Below, one piece after another: positions 1-33,405 of a stretch of DNA of 64,000 bases. The stretch's first letter is position 1. The number at the start of each line of letters is the position of its first letter. A program made the translations under genes and the position numbers. Origin of the DNA: Citrus sinensis (Eukaryota > Streptophyta > Magnoliopsida > Sapindales > Rutaceae); assembly GCF_022201045.2 (NCBI RefSeq), contig NC_068560.1, positions 33,815,001-33,879,000 of the forward strand, read 5' to 3'. Under the pieces are notes generated by a model. That model was not told the DNA's origin, searched no databases, and was given only the letters and a program-made list of their open reading frames with translations.

Positions 1-398
1 ATTATTATTTGGTATGATAAGCCCTTAGCACCATATTGATTAGAGCGTGATTCATGAGGTGTGGATTCCCCCCTCATGATTTAATTGGTATTAATAAGAA
101 ATATTTAGCCCATGATGCATGTTGATACGGATCCAGATATCCAAGTACGTCAATTTAATAGATTTTCTCTTCAATTTATTCTCTCCATTGCAATTCCAAT
201 TTTAGAATTTATTCTCGCCATTTTAATTTAAGTATTAGCATATTCCAAATCATTTCCACCATAAATCCAACTACCCATTTACAAAATTAATTCTATATAT
301 AATTAAAATCCACCTCCTCGTGGGATCGACACTCGTCACCATTAGTCTATACTACAATAGATTCGTGCGCTTGCGAGTACATTAAAATTTGCACAACA
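1..398 (+). repeat. 5' LTR, 3' portion only
   Basis: Bases 1-398 align without gaps to 11056-11453 with nine mismatches. The LTR ends in CA at 397-398, seven bases before the primer-binding site. The start of the LTR and the left target-site duplication lie outside the window. Confidence 0.95.
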
Positions 399-404
399 AG
401 TTTT

Positions 405-421
405 TGGCGCCGTTGCCAGGG
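405..421 (+). other. Primer-binding site, tRNA-Asp type
   Basis: TGGCGCCGTTGCCAGGG is complementary to the 3' end of plant tRNA-Asp with its CCA tail, with one mismatch near the end (A for G). It lies six bases after the LTR terminal CA. The stretch 422-799 is an AT/T-rich untranslated leader with no other feature seen. Confidence 0.85.
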
Positions 422-799
422 AAGTAAGTAATTTTAATTCATAGAATTAATTTGTGTGAATAATTTCTTTTAAATTGTTGTCTTGTATTTTTTTTTAAAA
501 AAAAGAAAAAGAAAAAAAAAGTGAATCTGCATTTAGAGGTTAGTATTTATTTTCTTTCTCTATTCTTTACAATTATGCAATTTAATTTTTAAGTTATTTT
601 TCTTTGTAATTTTTGTTTATCTTAATTTAATTTTCTTTATTAAGTTTTAATTTGATTTTTAGTTAATTTCACGTATTTGTTTTTGTGTATTTTTATAGAA
701 AGATTGTAATAGCGCAATAAGGTTAGTATCGTAATTTCTCCCTCTTCTTTATTTTTATTTTATTTTTTTCCCATCTTTATTTTTTTTTATTTGTTTTGC

Positions 800-2431
800 A
801 TGCATGGTCGTAGGTCATTATTACCCAATCTTGAACCTATAGACCTTGAACTTGAGAAAACACTTCGCACACACAAACAAGTAAAAAATAAAATGGATTT
901 GCAACCACAGGAGAGACCATTTAAAGATTATTTCAGTCCTTTAGTAAATTTGAGCACATCATGTATAAGATACCCAAATGTAGCTGCTAGGAGCTTTGAA
1001 TTAAAACCTAGTGTGCTAAATTGTCTCCCCACATTTTATGGCCTAGAAAATGAGGATCCATATAATCATCTGAATGATTTTCATGCCATTTGTCAAACTT
1101 TTAAATACGAAAATTTTTCAGATGATGATGTTAAACTCATATTATTCCCATTTTCTTTAAAGGATAGAGCTCGTTCATGGTTAAATACTTTGCCTGCTAA
1201 TAGCATTACATCATGGGAACAAATGGTTACAAAATTTTTGAATAAATATTTCCCAGTGCATAAAACCAATGCTATTCGCAGGGAAATCTCGGAGTTTACC
1301 CAGAGAGAGGACAAACAATTTTTCGAAACATGGGAGCGATTTAATGGGCTACTCTTGAAGTGTCCACATCATGGGTACGAGAAATGGCACCAATGCCAAT
1401 ACTTTTTGGAGGGATTACTACCAAATGTGCAAGAATGGCTAATGGCAACAAGTGGAGGAGAGCTAATGTCAAAAAATGCATAAAAAATTTGGGAATTCTT
1501 CCAGCGACAAGCAGATAATTCCCAACAACGGAGTCGATCACTCAGGACTACTAGAAGAATTAAAGAAGTGAATGAGGTTCAAATTGGCGAATTAACTTCA
1601 GGAATCAAAGAAGTCAAGGAGATGGTTGAAGGTCTTGCTCGACAAATAGCATCGTTATCGACTGCTAAATCAACAGAATCACATGACCATGACTCATACT
1701 CATATCAAGCCAATGCCATAGGTGTAATGAAAAAACCATCGAATTATAACCCATACTCCAACACATATAACCCTGGATGGAGAGACCACCCCAATTTTTC
1801 ATGGTCTCAAGGATTCCAACAGAATGGACCAGCAGCTCCAGCTCCACCAATGCAACCAATTCCACAAAATCCTCAAGCCTCTCAGCCCCCATTCAGACCA
1901 TATAATCAGAACCAGAACTACACTCAGCCCAGACCATGGGAGGATGCATTCCAGAATTTCAAGAATGTTACTCACTCCACAATTGAGCAACAGAACTGCA
2001 CCATTGATGGACTACGAAATGAATTGAGAGCGGGCTTTAACTCACAAGCCCAATCAGTTTCAAGCCTCGAGAAGATGGTGGGACAACTTGCTTCTTCAGT
2101 TTAGACCTTGGCAATGACTGTTGAGAAAGGCAAATTTCCAAGTCAACCAGTGTCTAATCCTAAAGGAGTACATGAAGCAAGTACCAGTTCACCACAGCAG
2201 CATGAAGAGGTCAAACCAGTCATGACCTTACGAAAAGGAAAAGAAGTCGACAACAAAGTGGAGATGCCAGTAACAAAAGAAAATCAAATTGTACCTGTGA
2301 GTGTTGATGACTCATCACCGGAGGAGAAAGAAGAAACCAACCCACGAGAATACGTTCCCAAAGCTCCATTCCCCCAGAGGTTAGCTAAAGGCAAGAAGGG
2401 AAAATCCACAGGTGAGAATTCAAACAGGTAA
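800..2431 (+). pseudogene. Retrotransposon gag, broken by in-frame stops
   Basis: The first ATG of the frame is at 800. The frame carries a retrotransposon gag capsid domain (about 1000-1470), including the SWLNTLP and FLNKYFP segments typical of plant gypsy Gag. TAA at 1481-1483 and TAG at 2102-2104 interrupt it, and the same frame continues after each. The downstream part is rich in Pro, Gln and Asn (about 1740-1960) and then Lys/Glu. I see no CCHC zinc knuckle. The frame ends at TAA 2429-2431, while pol resumes in another frame from 2416, so a small deletion or frameshift near 2410-2420 probably broke an originally continuous gag-pol reading frame. Gag would form the cytoplasmic particle for reverse transcription. 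This copy cannot make it intact. Confidence 0.9.
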
Positions 2432-5400
2432 GTGTTAACATCCCTTTGCTTGATGCTATTAAGCAAGTTCCATCTTATGCCAAGTTTCTTAAAGACTTTT
2501 GTACTAAAAAGAGAAACATGCATGTTCAAAAGAAGGTATTTTTAACAGAAAACGTTAGTTCTATACTCCAACATAAAATTCCTTTAAAATGCAAAGACCC
2601 AGGCTCCCCCACTATCTCATGTAGTATAGGGAACCACACAATTGAGAATGCTTTGTTGGATTTATGAGCTAGTGTAAATTTGTTGTCTTATTCAGTATTT
2701 ATAAAACTTGGATTGGGAGAATTACACCCAACTCCAGTGGTGTTACAGCTTGCAGATCGGTCCACGAAAATACCTCGTGGTATTGTGGAGGACGTGCTTA
2801 TCCAGGTAGACAAGTTTTATTTTCCTGTTGATTTCATTATAATTGACACTCAACCAATACAGGATTCAAGGAAGAACATCCACATTATTCTAGGCCGACC
2901 TTTCTTGGCAACTGCGGATGCTCACATTCAATGTAGGACTGGAAATATGCAGTTGTCCTTCGGCAACATGACTATGGAGCTGAACATCTTCAACATTGCC
3001 AAACAACCTCACAGTGCAGATGATGGAATTATTGATGTGGATTTAATTGAAACAATAGTTGATAACACTTTTCTTTCAAACCTTAGTGATGATCCTTTAC
3101 AAACATGTTTAACTCACTTTGGTTTGGATTTTGATATTGACAGATCGGTCGATGAGGTCAACGCCCTACTTGACTCAGCACCATCCATGGACACTAATAA
3201 ATGGAAGTCAAGAGTTGAACAACTAGCACCATCAGAGAAGAAACTCATCCCATCATCAGAATCACCACCGAAACTCGAGCTCAAACCATTACCCAACACT
3301 TTGGAATATGCATTTTTGGGGGAAGAAAGTACTCTACCGGTAATCATCTCATCATCCCTCAATGACGAACAAAAAGGTAAGTTGTTGGATGTTTTAAAAG
3401 AGCATAAAGGGGCATTAGGATGGACCATAGCAGACATCAAAGGTATAAACCCAGTAGACTGCATGCATTACATTCACCTTGATGAAAATGCTAAATCTAC
3501 TAGGGAAATGCAACGTCGGTTAAATCCTAATATGAAAGAAGTTGTTAGAACAGAAGTCCTTAAGCTATTAGATGCTGGTATCATTTACCCAATTTCTGAT
3601 AGTTCATGGGTCAGTCCTGTACAAGTCGTCCCCAAAAAGTCAGGAGTCACAGTAGTTACTAATGCCGATAATGAATTGATACCCACTAGAGTGACTACAA
3701 GATGACGTGTATGCATTGATTATAGAAAGTTGAATTCTGTCACACGTAAAGACCATTTTCCTTTACCATTTATTGATCAAATGCTTGATAGATTAGCAGG
3801 ACATGAATTTTATTGCTTTCTAGATGGCTACTCAGGATATAATCAGATTCCCATAGCACCAAAAGATCAAGAGAAAACTACTTTCACTTGCCCTTTTGGC
3901 ACATTTGCATATAGGAGAATGTCATTTGGATTATGTAATGCACCTGCTACATTTCAACGATGCATGTTGAGCATTTTATCTGATATGGTTGAACGATTCC
4001 TTGAAGTCTTTATGGATGATTTTTCTGTCTTTGGTGACTCGTTTGATCAATGTTTACATCATCTAACACTAGTTCTACAAAGATGTATCGAGAAGAACTT
4101 GATATTAAATTAGGAGAAATGCCATTTTATGGTAAAATAATGTATTGTTCTCGGTCACATCATTTCGAGCAAAGGTATTGAGGTTGACAAAGCCAAGGTG
4201 GATCTCATTTCTAATCTTCCTCCACCCAAAACAGTCAGATAAGTAAGATCTTTCATTGGGCATGCTGGTTTTTATAGACGTTTCATTAAAGATTTTAGCA
4301 AAGTTTCTAGACCCTTATGCAATTTACTTGCTAAGAATGTACCTTTTATCTTTAATGATTCATGTCTTGTGGCTTTTGAAAAATTAAAGTAGTTGTTGAC
4401 ATCATCACCCATCATTCAGGCCCCGAACTAGAGCTTACCATTTGAACTCATGTGTGATGCATCTGATTATGCAGTAGGAGCAGTATTAGGACAAAGAGTT
4501 GATCGAATTCCCCATGTTATTTATTATGCTAGTATGACATTGAATGATGCACAGTTGAACTATTCAACTACTGAAAAAGAAATGCTAGCAGTAGTGTTTG
4601 CATTGGAGAAATTTCGATCTTATCTCATTGGTTGTAAAATAATCGTGTTCACAGATCATGCTGCTCTTAAATATCTTCTCACAAAGAAAGATGCAAAAGC
4701 TAGACTAATTCGTTGGGTGTTACTTTTGCAGGAATTTGACTTGGAGTTCAAAGATAAGAAAGAGACATAAAATGTTGTGGCAGACCACCTCTCTCGTCTC
4801 CATTTTGACACAATTACAGAATCATTACCATTGAATGAATCATTTTCAGATGAACAATTAATGAATGTGGAAGTATGACCTTGGTATGCTGATATAGTTA
4901 ATTATCTTGTTACAGGTAAACTTCCAGAGCATTGGACCAAGCAAGACAAGGCTAAATTCTTTGCAGAAATAAAGAATTTCTTTTGGGATGACCCGTATTT
5001 GTTCAAGTATTGTGCAGACCAAATTGTTAGACGATGCGTCCCAGAAAGTGAAATTTCAAATATCCTTTCATTCTGCCATGAACAAGCTTGTGGAGGCCAT
5101 TTCAGCGCTAAGAAAACAGCGACTAAAGTTTTACAATGTGGTTTCTATTGGCCAACTATATTTCGAGATGCTTACACTTTCTGTTCTTCATGTGATAGGT
5201 GTCAACGAATGGGGAGCATTACACGAAGGAACATGATGCCACTAAATCCAATTTTAGTGGTTGAGATTTTTGACGTATGGGGTATCGACTTCATGGGACC
5301 TTTTCCCCCGTCTTTTGGCCATCAATACATATTGGTTGCTGTTGACTACGTATCCAAATGGGTAGAAGCAATTCCATGCAGAACTAATGATCACAAGGTG

Positions 5401-6177
5401 GTGATAGCATTTTTGAAAAGCAACATTGTTTCACGCTTTGGATTCCCTCGAGCGATAATCAGTGATGGTGATGCCCACTTTTGTAACAAAGCATTCAAGG
5501 CTCTTTTGACAAAGTATTCAATCACACACAAAGTGGCGACTCCGTATCATCCGCAAACCAGTGGCCAAGTTGAGATCTCCAATCGAGAAATAAAGCACAT
5601 ATTAGAAAAGACGGTGAGGCCAGACAGAAAAGATTGGTCATTAAGACTTGATGATGCCTTATGGGCATATAGAACGGCTTTCAAGACCCCGATTGGGATG
5701 TCACCCTACAGGCTAGTGTATGGAAAAACTTGCCACCTACCTGTGGAACTCGAGCATCGTGCATATTAGGCCATTAAGAAATTCAATTTTGACATGCAGC
5801 AAGCCAGCTCAGAAAGAAGATTACAACTAGCAAAACTTGAACAAATTCGCAATGACGCGTACGAAAATGCCAAGATTTACAAGCAACGAATGAAAGTCTT
5901 CCATGACAAGCAAATTATGAGAAAATCTTTCACTCCAGGTCAGAAAGTGCTTTTATTCAATTCTCGCTTGCACCTATTCCCAAGTAAGTTACGCTCTCGT
6001 TGGTCTGGCCCATTTATTGTTCATACTGTTTTTTCATATGGGGCAATTGAAATTAAGGACCCAAAGAACGGTGGCACGTTTAAAGTTAATGGTCAAAAAT
6101 TAAAGCCATATCTAGAATACCAATCACATGGAGAAGACACCGAAATAAATTTGAGCGACCCACCAGATTTGAATTGA
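2416..6177 (+). pseudogene. Retrotransposon pol (protease, RT, RNase H, integrase), ten stops
   Basis: One frame spans the whole gene. Protease comes first: its active-site D-L-G-A-S now reads DL-stop-AS because of TGA at 2665. Reverse transcriptase has FMDD at 4009-4020. RNase H covers about 4450-4750. Integrase has an HHCC zinc module (about 5080-5205) and catalytic Asp 5287, Asp 5464 and Glu 5572, the last two in DX35E spacing. Ten in-frame stops occur at 2665, 3703, 4111, 4138, 4240, 4390, 4429, 4768, 4876 and 5767. Several are explained by single G-to-A or C-to-T changes in Trp, Gln or Arg codons. The frame closes at TAA/TGA 6175-6177 with no chromodomain seen. Pol would copy and insert the element; this copy cannot encode it. 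Confidence 0.95.
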
Positions 6178-6672: not shown

Positions 6673-7230
6673 ATGGACAGAAACGAGATTCTAGCGAAGC
6701 TTCACAAGCGATTCCCTTCACTTCCTCAGAATGCCCTCCTTACGATCTATAAAGCTCGGTCCGAACGCATGCGATTACTCATGAGGAATAACATACCTGC
6801 TGACATCCGTTGGTTAATCGAGGCTAAAGTACGATCGGTAGGTGAGTTACCTCCAAAATTTATTGCATTCATGCCTGGTTGTGGTAAAGGAAATTATGCA
6901 AGAAAACGACGAGCTCGAAGAATTTATATTGCTTGTCATAAGTGTGCCAGAATGAGTTACAATAAAAACCCATGTTCTTTAAGAATGGTGTCTGATAACA
7001 GGGAAGATAAGATTCAATTCATTAGGGATGGCTTGAATAAGGAGTCATTGGATGATATCATTTTGTCTCTTGAAACGCATCCCAGTGGATATGTGCAAGG
7101 AGCGATTCTCCAGTTATGGCCATTATTCCAGAAAGAGCATGCACGATATAGTGTCGGGAATCTGACTATAAACGACCCTGTTTGCCAGTTTATAAGAAAA
7201 CTGGATAGGAAGCCTAGCCTCGACCCATAG
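6673..7230 (+). CDS. Accessory ORF resembling plant-virus nucleic-acid-binding protein (NABP), 185 aa
   Basis: The ATG at 6673 opens 185 codons. The centre has a strongly basic patch at residues 72-83 (KGNYARKRRARR), followed at once by a Cys-x2-Cys pair (C88, C91) and another Cys at 101. That order is the hallmark of the small cysteine-rich nucleic-acid-binding proteins of carlaviruses, vitiviruses and allexiviruses, several of which suppress RNA silencing or act in the nucleus. The homology call comes from motif order only; function here is inference. It sits between the 77-aa ORF and the LOG-like ORF. TAG at 7228 looks premature, because the same frame stays open for 22 more codons to TAA 7297-7299. 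The C-terminal third (about 105-185) has no recognised motif. A plain zinc-finger DNA-binding ORF is the alternative. Confidence 0.6.
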   Translation: MDRNEILAKLHKRFPSLPQNALLTIYKARSERMRLLMRNNIPADIRWLIEAKVRSVGELPPKFIAFMPGCGKGNYARKRRARRIYIACHKCARMSYNKNPCSLRMVSDNREDKIQFIRDGLNKESLDDIILSLETHPSGYVQGAILQLWPLFQKEHARYSVGNLTINDPVCQFIRKLDRKPSLDP

Positions 7231-7547: not shown

Positions 7548-8132
7548 ATGGCAGCTACTCCAAATAGACAATTCAAGAACATTTGTGTGCTTTATGGATT
7601 TACATATGGCAAACATAAAGAGTTCGTTGAGGCAGCCATCGATCTTGGTCGAAGTATAGCAGAGAGAAAATTACACTTTGTGTATGGAGGAGGTAACCGA
7701 GGGTTATCAAAAATGTTCTCTGAAGCAGCTTTTGTCAGAAGAAGTCAAGTGTTAGGCATCATCCCAAGAGTCCTAAAACCGTTGGGCAGTTCGTCTGACT
7801 CATCAACTGGAGAAGAGTTAGTTGTCTTAGGTATGCAAGAAAGAATAACTGAAATGCTTAATAATGCTGATGCTTTTATTTTCCTTCCAGGAGATCTTGC
7901 AACACTAGAGGCACTTATCACACTAGCATCTTGGGCCCATCTCCACATCTACCAGAAACTCATCGGTTTGTTAAATGTCAATAACTTTTATGATGGCTTT
8001 ATCGCATTTCTTAACCATGCAATAAAAAACTATTTCATTCCCGCTAATATGAAAAAACTCTTTATTTGTGCTCACACTGCTAATGAGCTACTTGATCTGT
8101 TACAAGCTTATAGACCGGAGCCAGACCCCTGA
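7548..8132 (+). CDS. LOG-family (lysine decarboxylase-like fold) homologue inside the retrotransposon, 194 aa
   Basis: LOG enzymes release active cytokinin bases from riboside monophosphates in plant cells. The first ATG that fits the family is at 7548 (MAATPNRQF). The fold landmarks are present: FVYGGG at residues 44-49, GIIP at 70-73, MQERITEM at 96-103 with its Arg kept, then ADAFIFLP and SWAHLHIYQK and IGLLNV. The signature PGGxGTxxE reads PGDLATLEA at 114-122, losing two glycines and the final catalytic Glu, so hydrolase activity is doubtful. TGA at 8130 looks premature because the frame continues for 27 codons to TAA 8214-8216. It lies on the same strand 317 bp after the NABP-like ORF and before the polypurine tract, so it belongs to the element and is not a host gene. 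Confidence 0.8.
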   Translation: MAATPNRQFKNICVLYGFTYGKHKEFVEAAIDLGRSIAERKLHFVYGGGNRGLSKMFSEAAFVRRSQVLGIIPRVLKPLGSSSDSSTGEELVVLGMQERITEMLNNADAFIFLPGDLATLEALITLASWAHLHIYQKLIGLLNVNNFYDGFIAFLNHAIKNYFIPANMKKLFICAHTANELLDLLQAYRPEPDP

Positions 8133-8216
8133 ACCTTTGTGTTGGAGCATCCAAATAATGATGATAACAGTAGCAGCAGTAAGAAGTACAAATTAGATTT
8201 AACTCTCCGCCTGTAA

Positions 8217-10100
8217 ATATTTTCTTCTGTGTTGCACCACCCAGGTGATGTCTTCTAAACTCTACTTCTTTCCTTTCAAACATTGAGGACAATGTTTCAT
8301 TCTGGTTGGGGGGAGGGAATAGTCGACAATTGTGGAATCTTGGTTAGGTTTTTACTAATTTTTTGTTGTAGAAACTAATTGTTGCTAACTTTTTGTGTTG
8401 AAGATGACTGAATATGGAGTGTAGTTACTCTAGAAACGCATCTTCATTGTTTGGAAAAAAAAATTTCAAAAAAAAAAATTAGACATTTTCTTTTTCTTTA
8501 TTAAGTTTTGATGTTTATTTTTTTTCTTTTTAATTTCTCCTCTATGAATATACATTTTTCAACTTTTGAGTCGAAGATGGCTGAATATGGAGTATAGTGC
8601 CTCTAGAAACGCATCTTCTTAGTAAAAAAAAAAAAACTCATTTTCTTTTTCTATCATTTTAAGTGTACTTTTTCTAATATTTTTTTTGCATCATTTTCAC
8701 ATTTCTGCATGCATATTTTCCTTTCATGTTTAGAATAGGTTGGGGGGTAGAATGTTGTTCAAAAAAAAAATTGTGTGATTTGTTTTAACATTGGATTACA
8801 TGATTAATTTCAAATTTTAGTATTTGTATTATCTTTGGTCTTAAGTGATATTACATTATGTTTGCTACTTTACATGTTGATGTTAGAGACAAATATGAAT
8901 TGCTTGAAGGAATGAACATGTCATAATAAGTACCAAGTGAGTTTTTGAGCCTATCATTTTTCTTGGAGAGTAACCCTTTTGCCCATTCTTTATATAGCTT
9001 AACAGTTTATTATTTTATATACGATCTTTAGATTTCTTTTGAGTTAACCCTTAAAAAAAAAAGTGTGTTGCTACATTGGGAGGCCCATCTAACTAGTAGA
9101 TATGGATGATTATTTAGAGCCCTAAAAGACGATGGAAATGCCATCTTTGTCCTGTTTGAGCCTTTTTAGCCATCCCTTTTGTGATATATCCATAGTCAAC
9201 CCTTTTGAGCTTTTAAAAAAAAAAAAAAAATCTTTTCTTTGTCAACTTATCATCTTGACCCACTCCGATTTGGAGTATTACACGATGTCTTATAAGGTCC
9301 ATCACCTATTTATGATTGAGAAAAATGTAAATAATTATTTTGTTCAGTGAAGTTGTGCCAAATAAAAGCAAAAAAAAAAGAGAAAAAAAAAACAAAACAA
9401 AAGTTGTTGTTTCAAAAGAATAAAAATAACAATAATAGGTGAAATCCACCTTGCAACTTCCAAAAAAAAAAAAATTCTCTGTATTTTTCTCAAACATACA
9501 CTTTATTTTCCTTATTTCCCTTCTTTGTTAACCATGTCCCTAGCCTACGTTACGTCCTAATAAAAGTCCTTCTTGATTTTAGGGAATTATAGTCCGAAGT
9601 AGAAGCTAGTTATATGGGCTAAAAAGATGTAGTGATGCATAATTAAAAAGAAAAAAAGATAAATAAAGTGGGTTGACTAACATTTTATTTGACTTGAGAT
9701 TGTATTATTTCTAAGCTGAGGACATATTTATTTCATCTTGGTGAGAGCATGTGATATCACTTCTTTATTATTTTCTCTCTCAAGTACCATTAATTGGAGT
9801 GACTATTTTTATTGGGTTTAATTTATTTGTGAGAGTTTCACTACTTCCAGTGAGATTTTAGGGTTTGACATGTCATTCTTGAAAGTAGCTATAACAAAGT
9901 CTACTGGGCTAATTCATGTGGATGGTTGATGTGGGTGTGATGTTGCTTTAGACTGGAGATAATGCTTATACTTTTATTTGATTGCTATCATTAATCTGAT
10001 TGAATAAACACGAGTGTTTCTAAAAAAAAAAAAATCGTTTTGAATTTGAATTTTGTTTTCGCTTTATTTGCTAGGGACTAGCAATAAGCTGATTGGGGGG
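8217..10100 (+). other. Retrotransposon 3' non-coding region with purine tracts and a direct repeat
   Basis: No coding frame is credible here. It holds ATTGAGGACAATGT (about 8282-8296) followed by a G-rich tract, GGTTGGGGGGAGGG at 8304-8317, a combination common downstream of pol in plant gypsy elements. A roughly 55-bp segment at 8397-8450 recurs at 8567-8622 (GACTGAATATGGAG / GGCTGAATATGGAG and CTCTAGAAACGCATCTTC shared). The rest is A/T-rich with homopolymer runs. Confidence 0.7.
10091..10100 (+). other. Polypurine tract next to 3' LTR
   Basis: GATTGGGGGG directly precedes the TG that begins the 3' LTR, the expected place for plus-strand primer formation. Confidence 0.8.
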
Positions 10101-10535
10101 TGTGTTGAGTGTTAGAAAATGCATATTTATAAAGGAGAAAATCGTCATTTTACATTTCAAGTCTTACTAACAACCCTTACTTTTATGTATTTAACCTTCT
10201 TGTGATTTAATTACATGTGTTTTATTTTAATTAAGTATTTTATGTATTTTAGGGGCATTATAGTCATTTCACAATAAAGGAGAAATCAGACGGCAAAACG
10301 GACATCGCTTTTGAACTCAGGACGGTCAAAAACCTTAGGAGGAGCATAAAAGGAAAAATGGCACTATTCACATGTACGGTACTATTCACGTGTACGGTAA
10401 TGTGGCATTGACTGATGAGGTGTCACGATCCTGTTGGACTAAAATTCTTATGTACTGTTGATGGTGACGTGGCAGCATATCAGTGAACGAAAAATCTTGC
10501 GTACGGTGCATGCATCACACAGGATTATTTTCAAC

Positions 10536-10665
10536 CAAACCGCGTTACTGTTCATTCGGGTCAAACCGCGTTACTGTTCAAAGTCGGGTCAAACCGTGTT
10601 ACTGTTCAAAGTCGGGTCAAACCGTGTTACTGTTCATCCGCGTGGTCAAACCGTGGACTGTTGAC
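10536..10665 (+). repeat. Five tandem 26-29-bp repeats in LTR U3
   Basis: Units start at 10536, 10562, 10590, 10618 and 10647 and share CAAACCGTGTTACTGTTCA. They lie about 70-200 bp upstream of the LTR TATA box, where enhancer-like repeats are usual. A second short repeat, ACTATTCAC(A/G)TGTACGGT, is doubled near 10371-10400. Confidence 0.85.
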
Positions 10666-10735
10666 TGATGACGTGGCGCAATCCAGAGCGTCCAAACTGT
10701 TTTTAATCCGATGGCCATGATTTACTCCATGTATC

Positions 10736-10744
10736 TATAAAAAG
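10736..10744 (+). promoter_or_regulatory. LTR TATA box
   Basis: TATAAAAAG in the U3 part of the 3' LTR, about 100 bp before the AATAAA signal. The same region in the 5' LTR lies outside the window. Confidence 0.7.
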
Positions 10745-12164
10745 GGGGCCTCTCCCCCCTACTTTGATATCTCTGAATCCATTTTTGGACTCTGTTTTCT
10801 GTAATTCCCTCTCCATCTTGTATTTTCTTCGTATTTTAATAAATTTCCATTTTGCCCCTAGTTCAATTATGAGTGGCTAATTTTCTTTCAAGCTTGGGTT
10901 GAAGGTGAAGTTTCAACATGTGTCATGGACTTAATTTGGTAAATTTATTTTCTCTTCCCCTCTAGTTTTTGTGGATGTTTTGATTTCTCGTCGACAAATA
11001 ATAATAATCTTGTCTAGATACCGCCTTGGTTACATCGGCTCTCTAGTATAAGGTTATTATTATTTGGCACGATAAGCCCTTAGCACCATATTGATTAGAG
11101 CGTGGTTCATGAGGTGTGGATTCCCCCCTCATGATTTAATTGGTATTAATAAGGAATATTTAGCCAATGATGCATGTTGATATGGATCCAGATACCCAAG
11201 TACGTCAATTTAATAGATTTTCTCTTCAATTTATTCTCTCCATTGCAATTCCAATTTTAGAATTTATTCTCGCCATTTTAATTTAAGTATTAACATATTC
11301 CAAATCATTTCCACCATAAATCCAACTACCCATTTACAAAATTAATTTTATATATAATTAAAATCCACCTCCTCGTGGGATCGACACTCGTCACCATTAG
11401 TCTATACTACAATAGATTCGTGCGCTTGCGAGTACATTAAAATTTGCACAACAAGTGATACATCAATACCTGCTCAGCTCTTTTAATTATCCAGTTTCTC
11501 TAGCTCCACAATAAAAAATGGCTCAAACAAAACTATAATTTTGAGTTTATTAAAACATTTACAATTGTTTTTATAAACAAAATTTGCATACGATATCTGG
11601 TGCCAATATGGTTATTAGACAGTCAAGGAAGGCTCAAACAAATATGAAATATTGAAGTTGGTGTGATCATCATCTCCGTTCAAAAAGGTTGATGGGAAAT
11701 GACTAATAATATGAAATATTCAAAGCAATAAGTGGGGATATATAGTTAGTATCCCAAGTAATATATCATCACTAGATGTGTATAATATTGGTTAATATTA
11801 TTATTCATTATTAATAAGATTATTTTACAATCTAATCAATAAGTGGCATATAAATTGTCACATTAATTAGTTGGGATAAAAATTATTTGTGTAGGGATAA
11901 CTTCAATCTTAATTTAAATAAATGAATAAAAGCATTAAAAATATATAAACTGATATATTAAAAAAAAAATTCACACTTGACACCTTGCTTAACAGGACTT
12001 TGCTAGCTTATAAGCTACGGACTGCAGCATCAGCCGTTGGATGTCCTGCTTAACATTATTGGAAATTAACTATTGATTATTGTACTACGAGCACCAGATA
12101 CGATATGGTACTCTCTTATTTGACGTTGCTAATTGCAATTGCTGGATAAACAAAAAATCTTAAA

Positions 12165-14893
12165 TTAATGAATAGCGACACTTTGCAGCACAATGGTCTC
12201 AATCGAGAGACCCGGCCCGAACCCGAACAAGACGCCCCATTGAAGCCCCTCACCAGTGGTGGCTTTCCTTTCGTCCATGGACTTGTTCCTCATCTCATCA
12301 AGTATAAACAGCACGCTGGGACTCCACATGTTGCCATATTCGCTCAGCACATGCTTGCTGGCTCTTAATTTCTCCTTTGACAATCCAAGCTTTTCTTCCA
12401 CTACTCTGAGAACTGATGGGCCCCCAGGATGAACTACATAAAACAATGAGTTCCAGTCACCGATACCAAATGGAGCGAATGTTTCAATACAGCATTGTAC
12501 TATGTTGTCGCCAATGACCTTGGGCACCCCTTTGGACAAGTAATATTGCATGCCCACTTCTCTTATTCGCCCCACAATCGCATTATCTGAGTCAGGGATC
12601 ATCGTTTGAGCTGTAGAAACAAGTTGGAACAGTGGACGTTCATTGCTGGTATCAGTATCGGGATCAGCACCAACAATGGCGGCGGCAGCTCCGTCGGAGA
12701 ATATTGTTGAGCCAACAAGAACATCCATGTATGTATCAGAAGGTGCATGGAAACACACAACCATCAGTTCAGAGCACACGATGAGAACACGGGCGCCAAC
12801 GTTGTTCTCGGCAAGGTCCTTGGCGAGGCGAAGAGCAGTGCCACCGGAGAAGCAACCTTGTTGATAGATCATAAATCTTTGAACAGAAGGTTGAAGGCCA
12901 ATGAGCTTGGCAACCTTATGATCTGCACTAGGCATGTCTATCCCGGAAGAAGTACAAAATATGAGGTGTGTGATTTTTGACAGAGGCTGGCCCCATTCTT
13001 TGATGGCCTTCAGTGCTGCTTCCTTGCCCAGTTTCGGTACTTCGTCAACTAGAATTTCTTGACGTGTATTAAAAGATGGAGCGTTTTGGGTACCGATATT
13101 AGGGTTCTCCTTGATAATATCTTCAGTCAAGTACATGTGGCGTTTCCTTATAGTTGATTTCTCACCTGCAAATTAAATCAAAATCTTCTTCAAATGGGTT
13201 GTGAACAGTGTATATATATAGTCATTATACTGTTATGATTATGGTTTAATATCTTTTTTCGGACTTTAATAATCTTCAGAATTCCGAACTAAATCATAAT
13301 TATATATATAAAGTTTTTTTTTACCTTATTCCTAATTTTATGTATGTATGTATTAATATAATCATTTTCTAGTAAATGCATCCTCACTTTTTTAAAGTAA
13401 GGATGCCGTTAAAAAACAAAAAAAAACACATATATTAATATACTAACAGATAAAAAAATAAAATTTTTAATATATTGAAATTCGTATTTTTTTATATTTT
13501 TAGTAACATCCTCACTTTATTACCAGAGAAGGACTTATATATAATCATTCTCTAGTGTGAAAAAATCTATGTTCTTTAATATTTTACTAACATCCTTACT
13601 TTAACAAAATAAATATGTCCTCACTAAAGAAGAGCTATATGTATATAATTTTTCAATGAGGAATCATTTGAATTATTAAAGTAAGACAAAAAAAAAAAAT
13701 TCAATACACTATGTAACATAATACACAACAATGAATTTGTGTGCTTTGTTTATATTTTAGTTTATTTCTTGCTTTAATATTTTAAATGATCACTTGTTAG
13801 ATAATGACTACACACACACGATCACTGGCAGTAACTGGGAATCCTATTACACCTAAAGCCAACTTCAATTCACCAAACCAAGGTTCATCTCGTGTAGTGA
13901 TTATGGACTCGTACAAGGATATTGATAGGACCGAACTAAGGAAAAACTATCCCATAATGGATGAACGGAAATAATCCTTTAACAAGCAAGTTTTTATATA
14001 TATAGAGAAAGACAAGAGAGATTTTTCAGACCTTAACAAAGTGTAGAATCCTAAATTAGAACATTATATATGTATGTATGTATGTATATAGAGGAGTGGT
14101 TGATGCCTAAATGAATTTTTATGCCCTAGTTCCCCTAGGGTTCGAACTCAGTTGGCCAATTACAACATAGTTAATTAAAGAACTATATAATATCAAATTG
14201 ATCTTTAATAAGTAGATTTGAATATTTTTTTTCCAAAAAAAAAATTTTGAAAACAAAATTTGAAAAGCTATTAGTACCACAAGTACCCTTGCACTTCGCT
14301 ATTATGACAATACTAGCTAGTTTAAGCTTAATCGAATTAATAATTTTTTTTTTGAAGTTACATGGTAATCTAAGGCTGCCTTTGACAATTAAACATTACA
14401 AGTCATAATTACAATAAAATAAAAATTATAATTGTGAAATAAAAATCATTAAAACTTATCAGATGTGACTTTTAAATTTTGAGGAATAATATTTTTGAAA
14501 AAAAAATTGAAAATAATAATTTTTTTAAAAAAATGAAGTTAATACTATGAGTTCCTATTTATTTGGAATTAAATTAATATAACTTTTAAGTTGTTAATAT
14601 ATTTTATGTATACGTAACATACTTTTACTGCTGCAGCTATGACATCAAAGTTAAAAGCATACTAACTGTTGCGACACAGCAACACCATGCAAAGCCTAAA
14701 TGAACTTACACATTCGTTTGAACTTGTCTTTTAAATGAGTCAAATGCTCGCTTTTGGTAGCACGGAAATAGAAATCTGGATAATCTGATTGATAGAAAAT
14801 GTTGGGTGGATTTGCGGTCCCGATTGCTAGAATTGCAGCAGGGCTTCGACCTCGAGCCTGCCGACTCTCCATGATATTTCCCATCGACGCCAT
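12165..14893 (-). CDS. PKS-1: type III polyketide synthase (chalcone/acridone/quinolone-synthase-like), 394 aa
   Basis: Two exons, 14893-14710 and 13165-12165, are split inside the conserved Cys codon (phase 1), as in nearly all plant CHS-family genes. Together they give 395 codons including stop, the usual length. The catalytic triad is present: Cys166 (QQGCFSGGT), His307 (YVVHPGGP) and Asn340 (EYGNMWSP), plus the C-terminal GFGPG loop. In alfalfa CHS numbering the cavity differs: T132S, T194M, T197C, F265Y and S338W, with S133, F215 and G256 kept. A true chalcone synthase is therefore unlikely. Condensing an anthraniloyl-type or other bulky CoA starter with malonyl-CoA in the cytosol is the best guess. 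A TATA box lies at 14966-14973. The product differs from PKS-2 at four residues. Confidence 0.93.
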
Positions 14894-29160: not shown

Positions 29161-31546
29161 ATGGCGTCGATGGGAAATATCATGGAGAGTCGGCAGGCTC
29201 GAGGTCGAAGCCCTGCTGCAATTCTAGCAATCGGGACCGCAAATCCACCCAACATTTTCTATCAATCCGATTATCCAGATTTCTATTTCAGTGTTACCAA
29301 AAGCGAGCATTTGACTCATTTAAAAGACAAGTTCAAACGAATGTGTAAGTTCATTTAGGCTTTGCATGGTGTTGCTGTGTCGCAACAGTTAGTATGCTTT
29401 TAACTTTCATGTCATAGCTGCAGCAGTAATAGTATGTTACGGATACATAAAATATATTACAACTTAAAAGTTATATTAATTTAATTCCAAATAAATAGGA
29501 ACTCATAGTATTAACTTCATTTAAAAAAAAATTATTATTTTTCAATTTTTTTCAAAAATGTTATTCCTCAAAATTTAAAAGTCACATCTGATAAGTTTAT
29601 TTCACCATTATAATTTTTATTTTACTGTAATTATGACTTGTAATGTTTAATTGTAAAAGGCATCCTTAGATTACCATGTAACTTCAAAAAAAAAAATTTA
29701 TTAATTCGACTAAGCTTAAACTAGCTAGTACTGTCATAATCGCGAAGTGCAAGGATACTTTTGGTACTAACAGCTTTTCAAATTTTGTTTTCAAAGTTTG
29801 TTTTTTGGAAAAAAAAAAAAATTCAAATCTACTTATTAAAGATCAATTTGATATGTATATAGTTCTTTAATTAACTATTTTGTGATTGGCCAACTGAGTT
29901 CGAATCCTAAGGGAAATAGGGCATAAAAATTCATTTAGGCATCAACCACTCCTCTATATACATACATACATACATATATAATGTTCTAATTTAGGATTTT
30001 ACACTTTGTTAAGGTCTGAAAAATGTCTCTTTGTCTTTCTCTCTATATATAAAAACTTGCTTGTTAAAGGATTATTTCCGTTCATCCATTATGGGATAGT
30101 TTTTCCTTGGTTCGGTCCGTCAATATCCTTGTACGAGTCCATAATCACTACACGAGATGAACCTTGGTTTGGTGAATTGAAGTTGGCTTTAGGTGTAACA
30201 GGATTTCCAATTACTGCACGCGATGGTGTGTGTGTAGTCATTATCTAACAAGTGATCATTTAAAATATTAAAGAAAGAAATAAACTAAAATATAAACAAA
30301 GCACACAAATTCATTGTTGTGTATTATGTTATATAGTGTGTTGAATTTTTTTTTTTGTGTATTATGTTACATAAAATTAAGAATAAGGTAAAAAAAAAAT
30401 TATATATATAATTCTGATTTAGTTCGGAATTCTGAAGTTTATTAAAGTACGAAAAAAAATATTAAACCATAATCATAACAGTATAATGACTATATATATA
30501 CACTATTCACAACCCATTTGAAGAAAATTTTGATTTAATTTGCAGGTGAGAAATCAACTATAAGGAAACGCCACATGTACTTGACTGAAGATATTATCAA
30601 GGAGAACCCTAATATCGGTACCCATAACGCTCCATCTTTTAATACACGTCAAGAAATTCTAGTTGACGAAGTACCGAAACTGGGCAAGGAAGCAGCACTG
30701 AAGGCCATCAAAGAATGGGGCCAGCCTCTGTCAAAAATCACACACCTCATATTTTGTACTTCTTCCGGGATAGACATGCCAAGTGCAGATCATAAGGTTG
30801 CCAAGCTTATTGGCCTTCAACCTTCTGTTCAAAGATTTATGATCTATCAACAAGGTTGCTTCTCCGGTGGCACTGCTCTTCGCCTCGCCAAGGACCTTGC
30901 CGAGAACAACGTTGGCGCCCGTGTTCTCATCGTGTGCTCTGAACTGATGGTTGTGTGTTTCCATGCACCTTCTGATACATACATGGATGTTCTTGTTGGC
31001 TCAACAATATTCTCCGACGGAGCTGCCGCTGCCATTGTTGGTGCTGATCCTGATACTGATACCAGCAATGAACGTCCACTGTTCCAACTTGTTTCTACAG
31101 CTCAAACGATGATCCCTGACTCAGATAATGCGATTGTGGGGCGAATAAGAGAAGTGGGCATGCAATATTACTTGTCCAAAGGGGTGCCCAAGGTCATTGG
31201 CGACAACATAGTACAATGCTGTATTGAAACATTCGCTCCATTTGGTATCGGTGACTGGAACTCATTGTTTTATGTAGTTCATCCTGGGGGCCCATCAGTT
31301 CTCAGAGTAGTGGAAGAAAAGCTTGGATTGTCAAAGGAGAAATTAAGAGCCAGCAAGCATGTGCTGAGCGAATATGGCAACATGTGGAGTCCCAGCGTGC
31401 TGTTTATACTTGATGAGATGAGGAACAAGTCCATGGACGAAAGGAAAGCCACCACTGGTGAGGGGCTTCAATGGGGCGTCTTGTTCGGGTTCGGGCCGGG
31501 TCTCACGATTGAGACTATTGTGCTGCAAAGTGTCGCTATTCATTAA
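29161..31546 (+). CDS. PKS-2: type III polyketide synthase, 394 aa, near-identical to PKS-1
   Basis: Exons are 29161-29344 and 30546-31546, with the conserved phase-1 intron in the Cys codon (GT donor at 29345, TGCAG acceptor at 30541-30545). The catalytic Cys166, His307 and Asn340 are intact, with the same unusual cavity residues as PKS-1 (Ser, Met, Cys, Tyr and Trp at CHS positions 132, 194, 197, 265 and 338). It differs from PKS-1 only by Ser-Val for Arg-Ala in the FYFxxTKSEH segment, His for Gln after NIGT, and Thr for Ser in the C-terminal GPGLxIET. The frame is undamaged, so both copies may be active. It lies between the OMT-2 and OMT-3 pseudogenes and transcribes away from PKS-1. Confidence 0.93.
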
Positions 31547-32218: not shown

Positions 32219-33405
32219 TCAAACATATCTCTCCCATATTCTCTACACCTACAATCAACGAGCCTTTAGTTAATCATAGTGAATACAATTGACAATTGTT
32301 TTCTCTCAGGATTCAGATTTGAGTAGTCGATCAAAAAACGTTGCTAGGAAATGTGGAATTCAATCAAGCCATATGAGCGAATGCTATTCACAATTGATCA
32401 ATGCATTATTGAAATTTGAAAACTCACTACGCCCCCTTCCAAAGTTTACTTGTTTTTATTGTTTAAAAAAACAAATCGTGCCCCCAAAATTTACATCTAA
32501 AAAAAAAAAAAGAAAACTTAAAAACAACAATATTAATCATCTAGTGAGTAATGAAAAAGAAAAAATTCATCAATACCTGAAAATGAAGGTGCATGAGCTA
32601 AGACATGAGGTAAATCAAAATTAATACTCTTGATGTGATAATACATAGAAGTGATCATATTAAGGGTAGCATCAATTCCACCACCCACATCAACAACACT
32701 TTCAGGTCTTGAAATCCTCTGTAGGCATAGAGAGCACTGTTCATGATCAAGGTTGTGTGATTCGACATCGCTTGATTAAATAACTAGTTGAACCTTTGAT
32801 CAGTAACAGGGTATTCAAATGAAGTCATCACATACGCTCGGTTGAAAGGGACCTCGCCTTCTAGTACTACATCATTTAAGTGATACCTGAGGAATAAAGT
32901 TATTTAATCCAAACAAAATGTAACTCTAAATCACCTAATTAGCTAGTGAAGTTGTAATCAATGGACTATTAGAAAATAATATCATATATATGTACCAGCT
33001 CTCCATGAGGACTTTATCCTGATGCAACAATAGCAAAGTGGCAACTGATCCTCCATCTTCATTCTTAACTAGGAACTTGCAAATGGGTCCCGCGCCATAG
33101 AGTCTCTCAACCACCTCATTTTCTCCCGTTCGAACTGAGCACTTGAGAATGTCATAGCCGGCCAAGAGCCGAAGCATTCGATCGGGCAAAACTGGGGCGT
33201 CGTGGTTCTTGGCGGGGAGCCTACTCGCGATCTCTGCATGTGAGAGGAACGCGCCTTCACTTGATCCTGATGAAGCAAAAATTGTGTCTATTACGTTCAG
33301 TTCCAGTGCTGATTTCAGCACCATTGGCAGCACCGCCGCGTCCGCTAAACTTATGGCTAGTTTCCCCAACTCTTGCTCTTCTTCATCTTCAAATTTTGAC
33401 ATCAT
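32219..33405 (-). pseudogene. OMT-3: COMT-like methyltransferase pseudogene, 3'-truncated
   Basis: The ATG is at 33405. Exon 1 (33405-32996) is fully open and encodes the dimerisation domain ([20 protein letters not shown], ending LLHQDKVLMESW) with a normal donor. Exon 2 starts at 32886 with a good AG acceptor, but TAG follows FN, and one base is lost before the SAM motif. Both lesions are shared with OMT-2. Exon 3 breaks off at 32219 and exon 4 is absent. The SAM-binding and catalytic parts therefore cannot be made. It lacks the copia insertion and so preserves the empty site. Confidence 0.9.

Follow-up and report, generated by a model that had tools for sequence, protein, structure and literature searches.

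A Ty3/gypsy retrotransposon family of Citrus sinensis carries an apparent LOG pseudoenzyme beside a putative carlavirus-type cysteine-rich protein

To our knowledge, neither an origin nor a function has been established for most of the extra open reading frames (ORFs) of plant long terminal repeat (LTR) retrotransposons. We describe here three such ORFs in a Ty3/gypsy element of Citrus sinensis that occupies one end of a 64,000-nucleotide stretch of DNA (the window; assembly GCF_022201045.2, contig NC_068560.1, positions 33,815,001 to 33,879,000), one of which encodes a homologue of the LONELY GUY (LOG) cytokinin-activating enzymes. The closest described systems are consensus gypsy elements from Citrus sinensis, C. 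clementina and Populus trichocarpa that contain YgdH (LONELY GUY) domains (PMC9289625, which cites Steinbauerova et al. 2011 for them). These share with the locus a LOG-type domain within a gypsy element, and the Citrus examples probably belong to the same element group; they receive two sentences in the available portion of that report, without active-site loss or selection, both of which are described here. The original prediction made from this DNA had regarded a LOG homologue in a mobile element as new, a claim that the earlier report removes. LOG capture is thus already known, and it is the dead but conserved site and the accessory neighbours that we have not found in print.

Two further comparisons are useful. 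Orchid gypsy elements of the Tat family carry a 2-ODD/AlkB m6A demethylase ORF (PMC9289625) and resemble the Citrus element in having an extra ORF whose domain also occurs in plant RNA viruses, but the domains differ, and the orchid domain is described as functional whereas the Citrus LOG looks dead. Viral cysteine-rich proteins (CRPs) of the carlavirus type are described as RNA-silencing suppressors and pathogenicity determinants, and that of chrysanthemum virus B also as a transcription factor that induces hyperplasia (PMC12172455). The CRPs of carlaviruses, allexiviruses and mandariviruses have a C-x2-C...C...C finger preceded by a basic KKRRAKR-type stretch, an arrangement shared by the product of an ORF upstream of the Citrus LOG; unlike them this product is retrotransposon-encoded, is about 182-185 aa long, and is also conserved in a C-terminal portion that the Pfam match does not cover. 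PMC9289625 makes no mention of carla, NABP or cysteine-rich in its main text, and the available portion of a review of additional ORFs (PMC7264820) makes none of cytokinin, lysine decarboxylase or Citrus. No carlavirus-type protein in retrotransposons was found in the titles and abstracts listed by the searches, although a preprint, a supplement or a closed paper may report one. A systematic survey counted extra ORFs of at least 250 codons (PMC6317226), and the shorter Citrus accessory ORFs would therefore be passed over.

The LOG-like ORF begins with an ATG at 7548 and ends at a TGA at 8130-8132 (194 aa), after which the frame reopens as far as a TAA at 8214-8216. By sequence match it is a LOG-family homologue far beyond chance, as had been predicted: PF03641 (LOG / Lysine_decarbox) scores 82.1 bits against a cut-off of 27, and phmmer matches AtLOG3 (2a33) at E 5.7e-39 and AtLOG8 (1ydh) at E 1.9e-37. 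The product aligns with AtLOG3 residues 7-190 and shares with plant LOGs of this type the VYGGG, GIIP and GLLNV motifs as well as Arg99, Thr119 and Trp129; it differs from them in being intronless and LTR-borne, and in nearly fixed replacements at the Glu122, Gly116, Gly118, Lys100, Ser19 and Glu125 columns.

The window element lies on a 39.0-Mb contig, and 300 Mb of genome were searched with the LOG ORF. The best 150 of 2037 first-look candidates were scored, and all are 92-100% identical to the query with no stop within the matched residues; 149 match residues 1-194 and one matches residues 2-194. A Pfam-driven search, in which the best 150 of 1560 candidates were scored, gave matches that are all above the cut-off and partly at the same places, and added a second, more distant subfamily. 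With 150 of 150 scored copies open and a strong PF03641 match, the ORF is neither a private capture nor a false call. A protein search returned 598 matches, and the named sources among the 120 listed are all Citrus; the element family is very abundant in Citrus sinensis. Merging double fetches and copies identical over about 1.2 kb reduced 75 fetched loci with a LOG match to 44 sequence-distinct loci. By length criteria the LOG ORF is intact in 32 of these, the CRP ORF in 22, and both in 19. Thirty of the 32 intact LOG ORFs have 222-224 codons, the other two (the window copy and L046) having 194; the extension past TGA 8130, which the original prediction had proposed for the family, is therefore real at that level, and the window copy ends early.

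The active site was examined in columns numbered after CgLOG (PMC4979012) and mapped by the PGGxGTxxE and MHQRK motifs, the Ser19 column being a presumed assignment. Where LOG enzymes have PGGxGTxxE the window copy has PGDLATLEA, with Ala in the Glu122 column, and Arg is present in the Arg99 column. Glu is absent from the Glu122 column in all 44 loci (Ala in 40, other states in four), while Arg99 is retained in 43 with one gap, so that the predicted loss of the catalytic Glu extends throughout the sample. The Gly116 column holds Asp in 43 loci, the Gly118 column Ala in 42, the Ser19 column Phe in 41, the Lys100 column Ile in 40, and the Glu125 column Thr in all 44; Thr119 is retained in 44, Glu121 in 42 and Trp129 in 40. 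Among 121 proteins (the window copy and the 120 listed of the 598 matches) the Glu122 column has Ala in 109, Thr in seven, a gap in one and Glu in none, and the Arg99 column has Arg in 107. The broken active site is thus a family-wide trait, fixed or nearly fixed. The ten host LOG loci of the same genome all keep GG(Y/F)GT, and nine keep the catalytic Glu; the tenth, L040, has Lys there and also contains a stop. In CgLOG, substitution of AMP-binding or catalytic residues by Ala leads to an almost complete loss of activity, with the exception of S19A, which is more active (PMC4979012); PDB entry 5zbk, presumably an engineered mutant, carries Ala in place of the Glu of 5zbj. Taken with these mutant data, the catalytic and pocket replacements make it very unlikely that the element protein works as a LOG enzyme, and they make canonical AMP binding doubtful.

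Selection was estimated as the ratio of nonsynonymous to synonymous substitution rates (dN/dS) by the Nei-Gojobori method for the 32 intact LOG and 22 intact CRP ORFs, stop-bearing loci being excluded. This comparison among copies, which had been suggested as a check, gives mean LOG values between three subfamilies of 0.211 (234 pairs, dS 0.75), 0.210 (18 pairs) and 0.177 (13 pairs), with bootstrap ranges for three single pairs between 0.11 and 0.36. The corresponding CRP means are 0.249 (84 pairs), 0.280 (28 pairs) and 0.215 (12 pairs), with bootstrap ranges of 0.10-0.50; the third CRP cluster (L083 and L087) is not the same as the third LOG cluster (L034). The LOG-like protein is thus under purifying selection between subfamilies, and looks like a maintained pseudoenzyme. 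The new role that the original prediction had envisaged is, in keeping with this selection, probably a non-catalytic one; nucleotide or AMP binding, which it had put forward, is less likely because several of the residues reported to hold AMP in CgLOG (columns 19, 100, 116 and 118) are also replaced.

The ORF probably originated among plant LOGs. All ten host loci are split into exons, and the element ORF is intronless. The breaks fall near residues 32, 64, 73, 108 and 132 of the AtLOG3 query; only 3′ exons are present in L042, L070 and L071, and the break at 132 is missing from L039 and L040. A tree of the kind the original prediction had called for was built from 26 sequences: 13 element copies, nine of the ten Citrus host loci, two Arabidopsis and two bacterial LOGs. 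The element LOGs make up a single clade (100/100), whose stem measures 1.03 substitutions per site, and group with the plant LOGs against the two bacterial ones (99.4/100); their identity to host LOGs is 35-45%. These observations would be explained best if a plant LOG transcript had been captured once, after splicing.

Two further ORFs, both absent from the original prediction, lie between pol and the LOG ORF, giving three sense-strand accessory ORFs between pol and the 3′ LTR. The one immediately upstream of LOG encodes the CRP, a match to which, whole or partial, is found 5′ of LOG in 42 of the 44 loci. In the remaining two, L027 and L041, the LOG ORF has no CRP match; L027 has a gag-like ORF (by eye) ending about 0.75 kb 5′ of LOG and looks like an internal deletion derivative. 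Viral_NABP (PF05515; cut-off 23) and Carla_C4 (PF01623; cut-off 20.9) score 20.4 and 15.9 bits on the 185-aa window CRP; the two scores on that of L010, from the second Citrus subfamily, are 20.3 and 20.8 bits. A kinship with viral CRPs is suggested more firmly by relatives, of which 177 proteins were recovered at E<=0.01 among 203 candidates. A profile of 14 relatives is matched by 723 of 2486, and all 120 matches listed bear a precomputed PF01623 label. Twelve of 14 further members scanned singly pass at least one viral cut-off, Viral_NABP reaching 34.1 bits; the two that miss are L010 and P0154. The viral match in the relatives spans about 85 residues, extending beyond the finger, and the basic stretch and four-Cys finger motif are present in them too. 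A set of 34 near-full-length CRPs, made up of the window copy and 33 of the 120 listed, was aligned; Viral_NABP and Carla_C4 each match 28 of them at E<=0.001. All four finger Cys residues are present in 21 of the 22 intact Citrus CRPs. Named sources among the matches listed are Citrus, Xanthoceras, Acer, Orobanche, Populus x canadensis, Populus alba and Rhamnella, most rows being unnamed; clusters represent up to 566 sequences (P0244, among the matches listed), as expected of a mobile element, and the Orobanche gene model fuses an apparent retroelement protease stretch (by eye) to the CRP. These profile comparisons suggest that the CRP belongs to the carlavirus-type cysteine-rich nucleic-acid-binding family. 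By analogy the element CRP may share the functions of viral CRPs; a direction for gene transfer between viruses and elements could be proposed only provisionally.

The third accessory ORF, of 77 aa, is complete or partial in 33 of the 44 loci, several of which are cut before it; the 15 copies whose match starts at residue 1 all have 77 codons. Its dN/dS of 0.31 (50 pairs; single-pair bootstrap 0.14-0.64) points to purifying selection across subfamilies, and a Pfam scan returns no family (best E 0.1). When the window element is compared with L090, a subfamily II element that provides the one pol pair, dS is 2.5 for the reverse transcriptase, 2.4 for RNase H and 1.8 for the C-terminal ORF, and beyond range for the integrase; the accessory ORFs have dS values against subfamily II of 1.04 (small ORF), 0.95 (CRP) and 0.75 (LOG). 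Because pol is saturated at synonymous sites and the cassette is not, with similar dN, this one pol pair suggests that element lineages whose pol genes had already diverged later exchanged the 3′ cassette.

We propose, at what we judge to be an even chance, that the three ORFs form a host-acting cassette in which a LOG captured once has lost hydrolysis and is kept in a non-catalytic capacity beside a virus-type CRP. A plant LOG transcript would have been captured once by the element, the captured protein would then have lost cytokinin-nucleotide hydrolysis and been kept for a non-catalytic task, possibly as a protein-binding dimer with element or host proteins as partners. The CRP might shield element RNA from silencing or reprogramme host transcription, and the cassette as a whole would aid the element against, or inside, the host cell. 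Insect retrotransposons with virus-derived accessory domains of weak suppressor activity offer a precedent (PMC6338049).

Several points weigh against this proposal. Co-location and co-conservation are all that ties the LOG to the CRP. The dN/dS sample consists of the best-scoring, intact copies and so favours conserved ones; values within clusters are less even (LOG 0.316 and 0.205; CRP 0.166, 0.419 and, for two loci, 0.559), and pol is, in the one element pair compared, more tightly constrained than the accessory cassette (reverse transcriptase 0.07, RNase H 0.08, C-terminal ORF 0.15, with dS at or near saturation). Invariance of the pocket columns does not significantly exceed the protein average (11 of 13 columns against 112 of 183, P 0.06), and nested placement of the element clade among host LOGs is supported at only 94.3/64, so that the source host LOG is not fixed. 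Both Citrus CRPs scanned sit just below the Pfam cut-offs, Tyr replaces the third finger Cys in the window CRP, and P0154 matches neither viral family at E<=0.05 despite its precomputed PF01623 label. Structure prediction, which had been suggested as a check for the LOG, yielded models with mean pLDDT values of 59.2 for the CRP (34 rows), which is low, and 39.6 for the LOG (26 rows), too poor for use.

Of the alternatives, the one that survives best concerns the CRP alone: it might not be virus-related, being instead an independent basic C4 zinc finger or a plant protein later taken by viruses. The sub-threshold scores of the two Citrus copies fit such an origin, as does the fact that viral kinship has been judged from profiles and not from a direct comparison with viral sequence; when viral contigs, possibly excluding records near the window's genome, were scanned with the CRP profile, 41 pattern matches and no confirmed relative resulted. 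We nonetheless consider it unlikely, since 12 of 14 members pass at least one viral cut-off with up to 34.1 bits against 23 over about 85 residues, and for either viral family 28 of the 34 aligned members reach E<=0.001. Quite improbable, in our view, is a dominant-negative decoy, in which the element LOG would enter mixed dimers, spoil the host LOG site and lower active cytokinin, thereby altering cell division or the state of meristems to the benefit of the element. The putative prenyl pocket of CgLOG lies at the dimer interface, and the partner supplies Glu125 and Trp129 (PMC4979012); with Thr at column 125 in 44 of 44 loci and Trp129 kept in 40 of 44, a mixed dimer would be faulty, but at 35-45% identity to host LOGs and with a stem of 1.03 the formation of mixed dimers is not obvious. 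We hold in similarly low regard the idea that a reshaped pocket binds or cleaves a different nucleotide-like ligand. Arg99, Thr119, Glu121, Trp129 and the VYGGG region are largely retained and the replaced residues are nearly fixed across subfamilies, which speaks for it; however, Asp116 and Ala118 change the phosphate-binding turn, the proposed catalytic pair is left with one residue, and the pocket invariance is, as noted, not significant. That the LOG and CRP ORFs are passengers hitch-hiking with the element without a role is highly improbable, for although elements amplify sequence whatever its use and 12 of 44 LOG and 22 of 44 CRP loci are non-intact by length, mean dN/dS between subfamilies is 0.18-0.28 for both, the small ORF keeps its 77 codons in 15 of 15 copies, and the CRP is conserved across plants of several orders.

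The element itself is a Ty3/gypsy LTR retrotransposon, as its LTRs, target site duplication (TSD), primer binding site, polypurine tract, gag, and pol in the order reverse transcriptase, RNase H, integrase demonstrate, and as the original prediction had proposed. It is about 12.4 kb long, and most of it makes up the first 11.45 kb of the window (Table 1); the 5′ LTR, about 1387 bp in all, starts 989 bases upstream of window base 1 (contig position 33814012), the portion outside the window having been read from locus L089. The LTR pair differs by 30 transitions and seven transversions at 1325 sites (Kimura two-parameter distance, K2P, 0.029), pointing to a fairly young insertion. The gag-pol frame of this copy is split into several ORFs. 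The primer binding site is presumably complementary to tRNA-Asp, and the protease-like motif, read by eye, we take to be such. The LOG ORF does lie between pol and the polypurine tract, as had been stated, but the tract adjoining the LTR is the one listed in Table 1, the purine run at 8308 being internal; the window's ORF list contains no ORF of at least 80 aa in the approximately 1.9 kb between the LOG ORF and the 3′ LTR. One RNase H domain was found in the window element, and an additional one (aRH), looked for in part of the stretches, would be informative in that its presence marks Tat elements while OTA/Athila elements lack it (PMC6317226).

Table 1. Features of the retrotransposon, in window coordinates
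Feature	Position	Strand	Basis
5′ LTR, 3′ part	1..398	+	window 1-401 vs 11056-11456, 97.8% identity
Primer binding site TGGCGCCGTTGCCAGGG	405..421	+	sequence directly after 5′ LTR
gag ORF piece	791..1483	+	PF03732 Retrotrans_gag, 73.4 bits
pol piece, protease-like motif IILGRPFLATA, without Pfam match	2680..3705	+	
Reverse transcriptase piece	3730..4113	+	PF00078 RVT_1, 74.1 bits
RNase H piece	4450..4770	+	PF17917, 124.5 bits
Integrase piece (H2C2 zinc binding and core)	4999..5769	+	PF17921, 49.2 bits; PF00665, 57.6 bits
C-terminal pol ORF piece, without Pfam match	5794..6177	+	66% identity to the corresponding region of one subfamily II element
Third accessory ORF, 77 aa	6298..6531	+	conserved across subfamilies; no Pfam family
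CRP ORF, 185 aa, putative carlavirus-type cysteine-rich nucleic-acid-binding family	6673..7230	+	profile matches of relatives
LOG-like ORF, 194 aa, apparent pseudoenzyme	7548..8132	+	PF03641, AtLOG3 match
27 codons and stop, same frame after TGA 8130	8133..8216	+	within ORF in 30 of 32 intact copies
Polypurine tract TTGGGGGGTG adjoining 3′ LTR	~10093..10102	+	sequence
3′ LTR (TGTTGAG...CACAACA)	10103..11453	+	alignment to 5′ LTR
Target site duplication AGTGA	11454..11458	.	same bases directly before 5′ LTR

Adjoining the element is an inverted duplication (97.6% over 1.5 kb) that contains a pair of near-identical 323-aa ORFs of the chalcone/stilbene-synthase type, at 12165-13136 on the minus strand (by Pfam) and 30575-31546 on the plus strand (by its sequence). 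The inverted duplicate of the flanking gene was considered as an empty insertion site but set aside, as no more than about 20 bases were available on the left. An ORF at 32935-33405 is, we presume, O-methyltransferase-like.

Beyond Citrus, it is a tentative suggestion, which we would not yet favour, that a widespread eudicot LTR lineage carries a viral-type suppressor gene, accompanied in Citrus by a LOG pseudoenzyme and a small conserved ORF, the whole forming a 3′ cassette that recombines between element lineages and behaves as a virus-like module for anti-silencing and cell state; flexivirus CRPs may have descended from such elements.

We note that the element LOGs P0004, P0119 and P0125 of Citrus x changshan-huyou carry the UniRef name of a cytokinin-activating enzyme, and that some gene models of this plant fuse CRP and LOG, which are likely annotation artefacts. 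Apparently dead LOG copies named as enzymes (cluster P0004 alone represents 705 sequences) inflate a hormone gene family. For the retrotransposons themselves, two of the three accessory ORFs appear to have recognisable relatives, one of them among proteins some of which suppress silencing for viruses, and they seem to be kept by selection, which would make anti-silencing proteins of plant retrotransposons directly testable.
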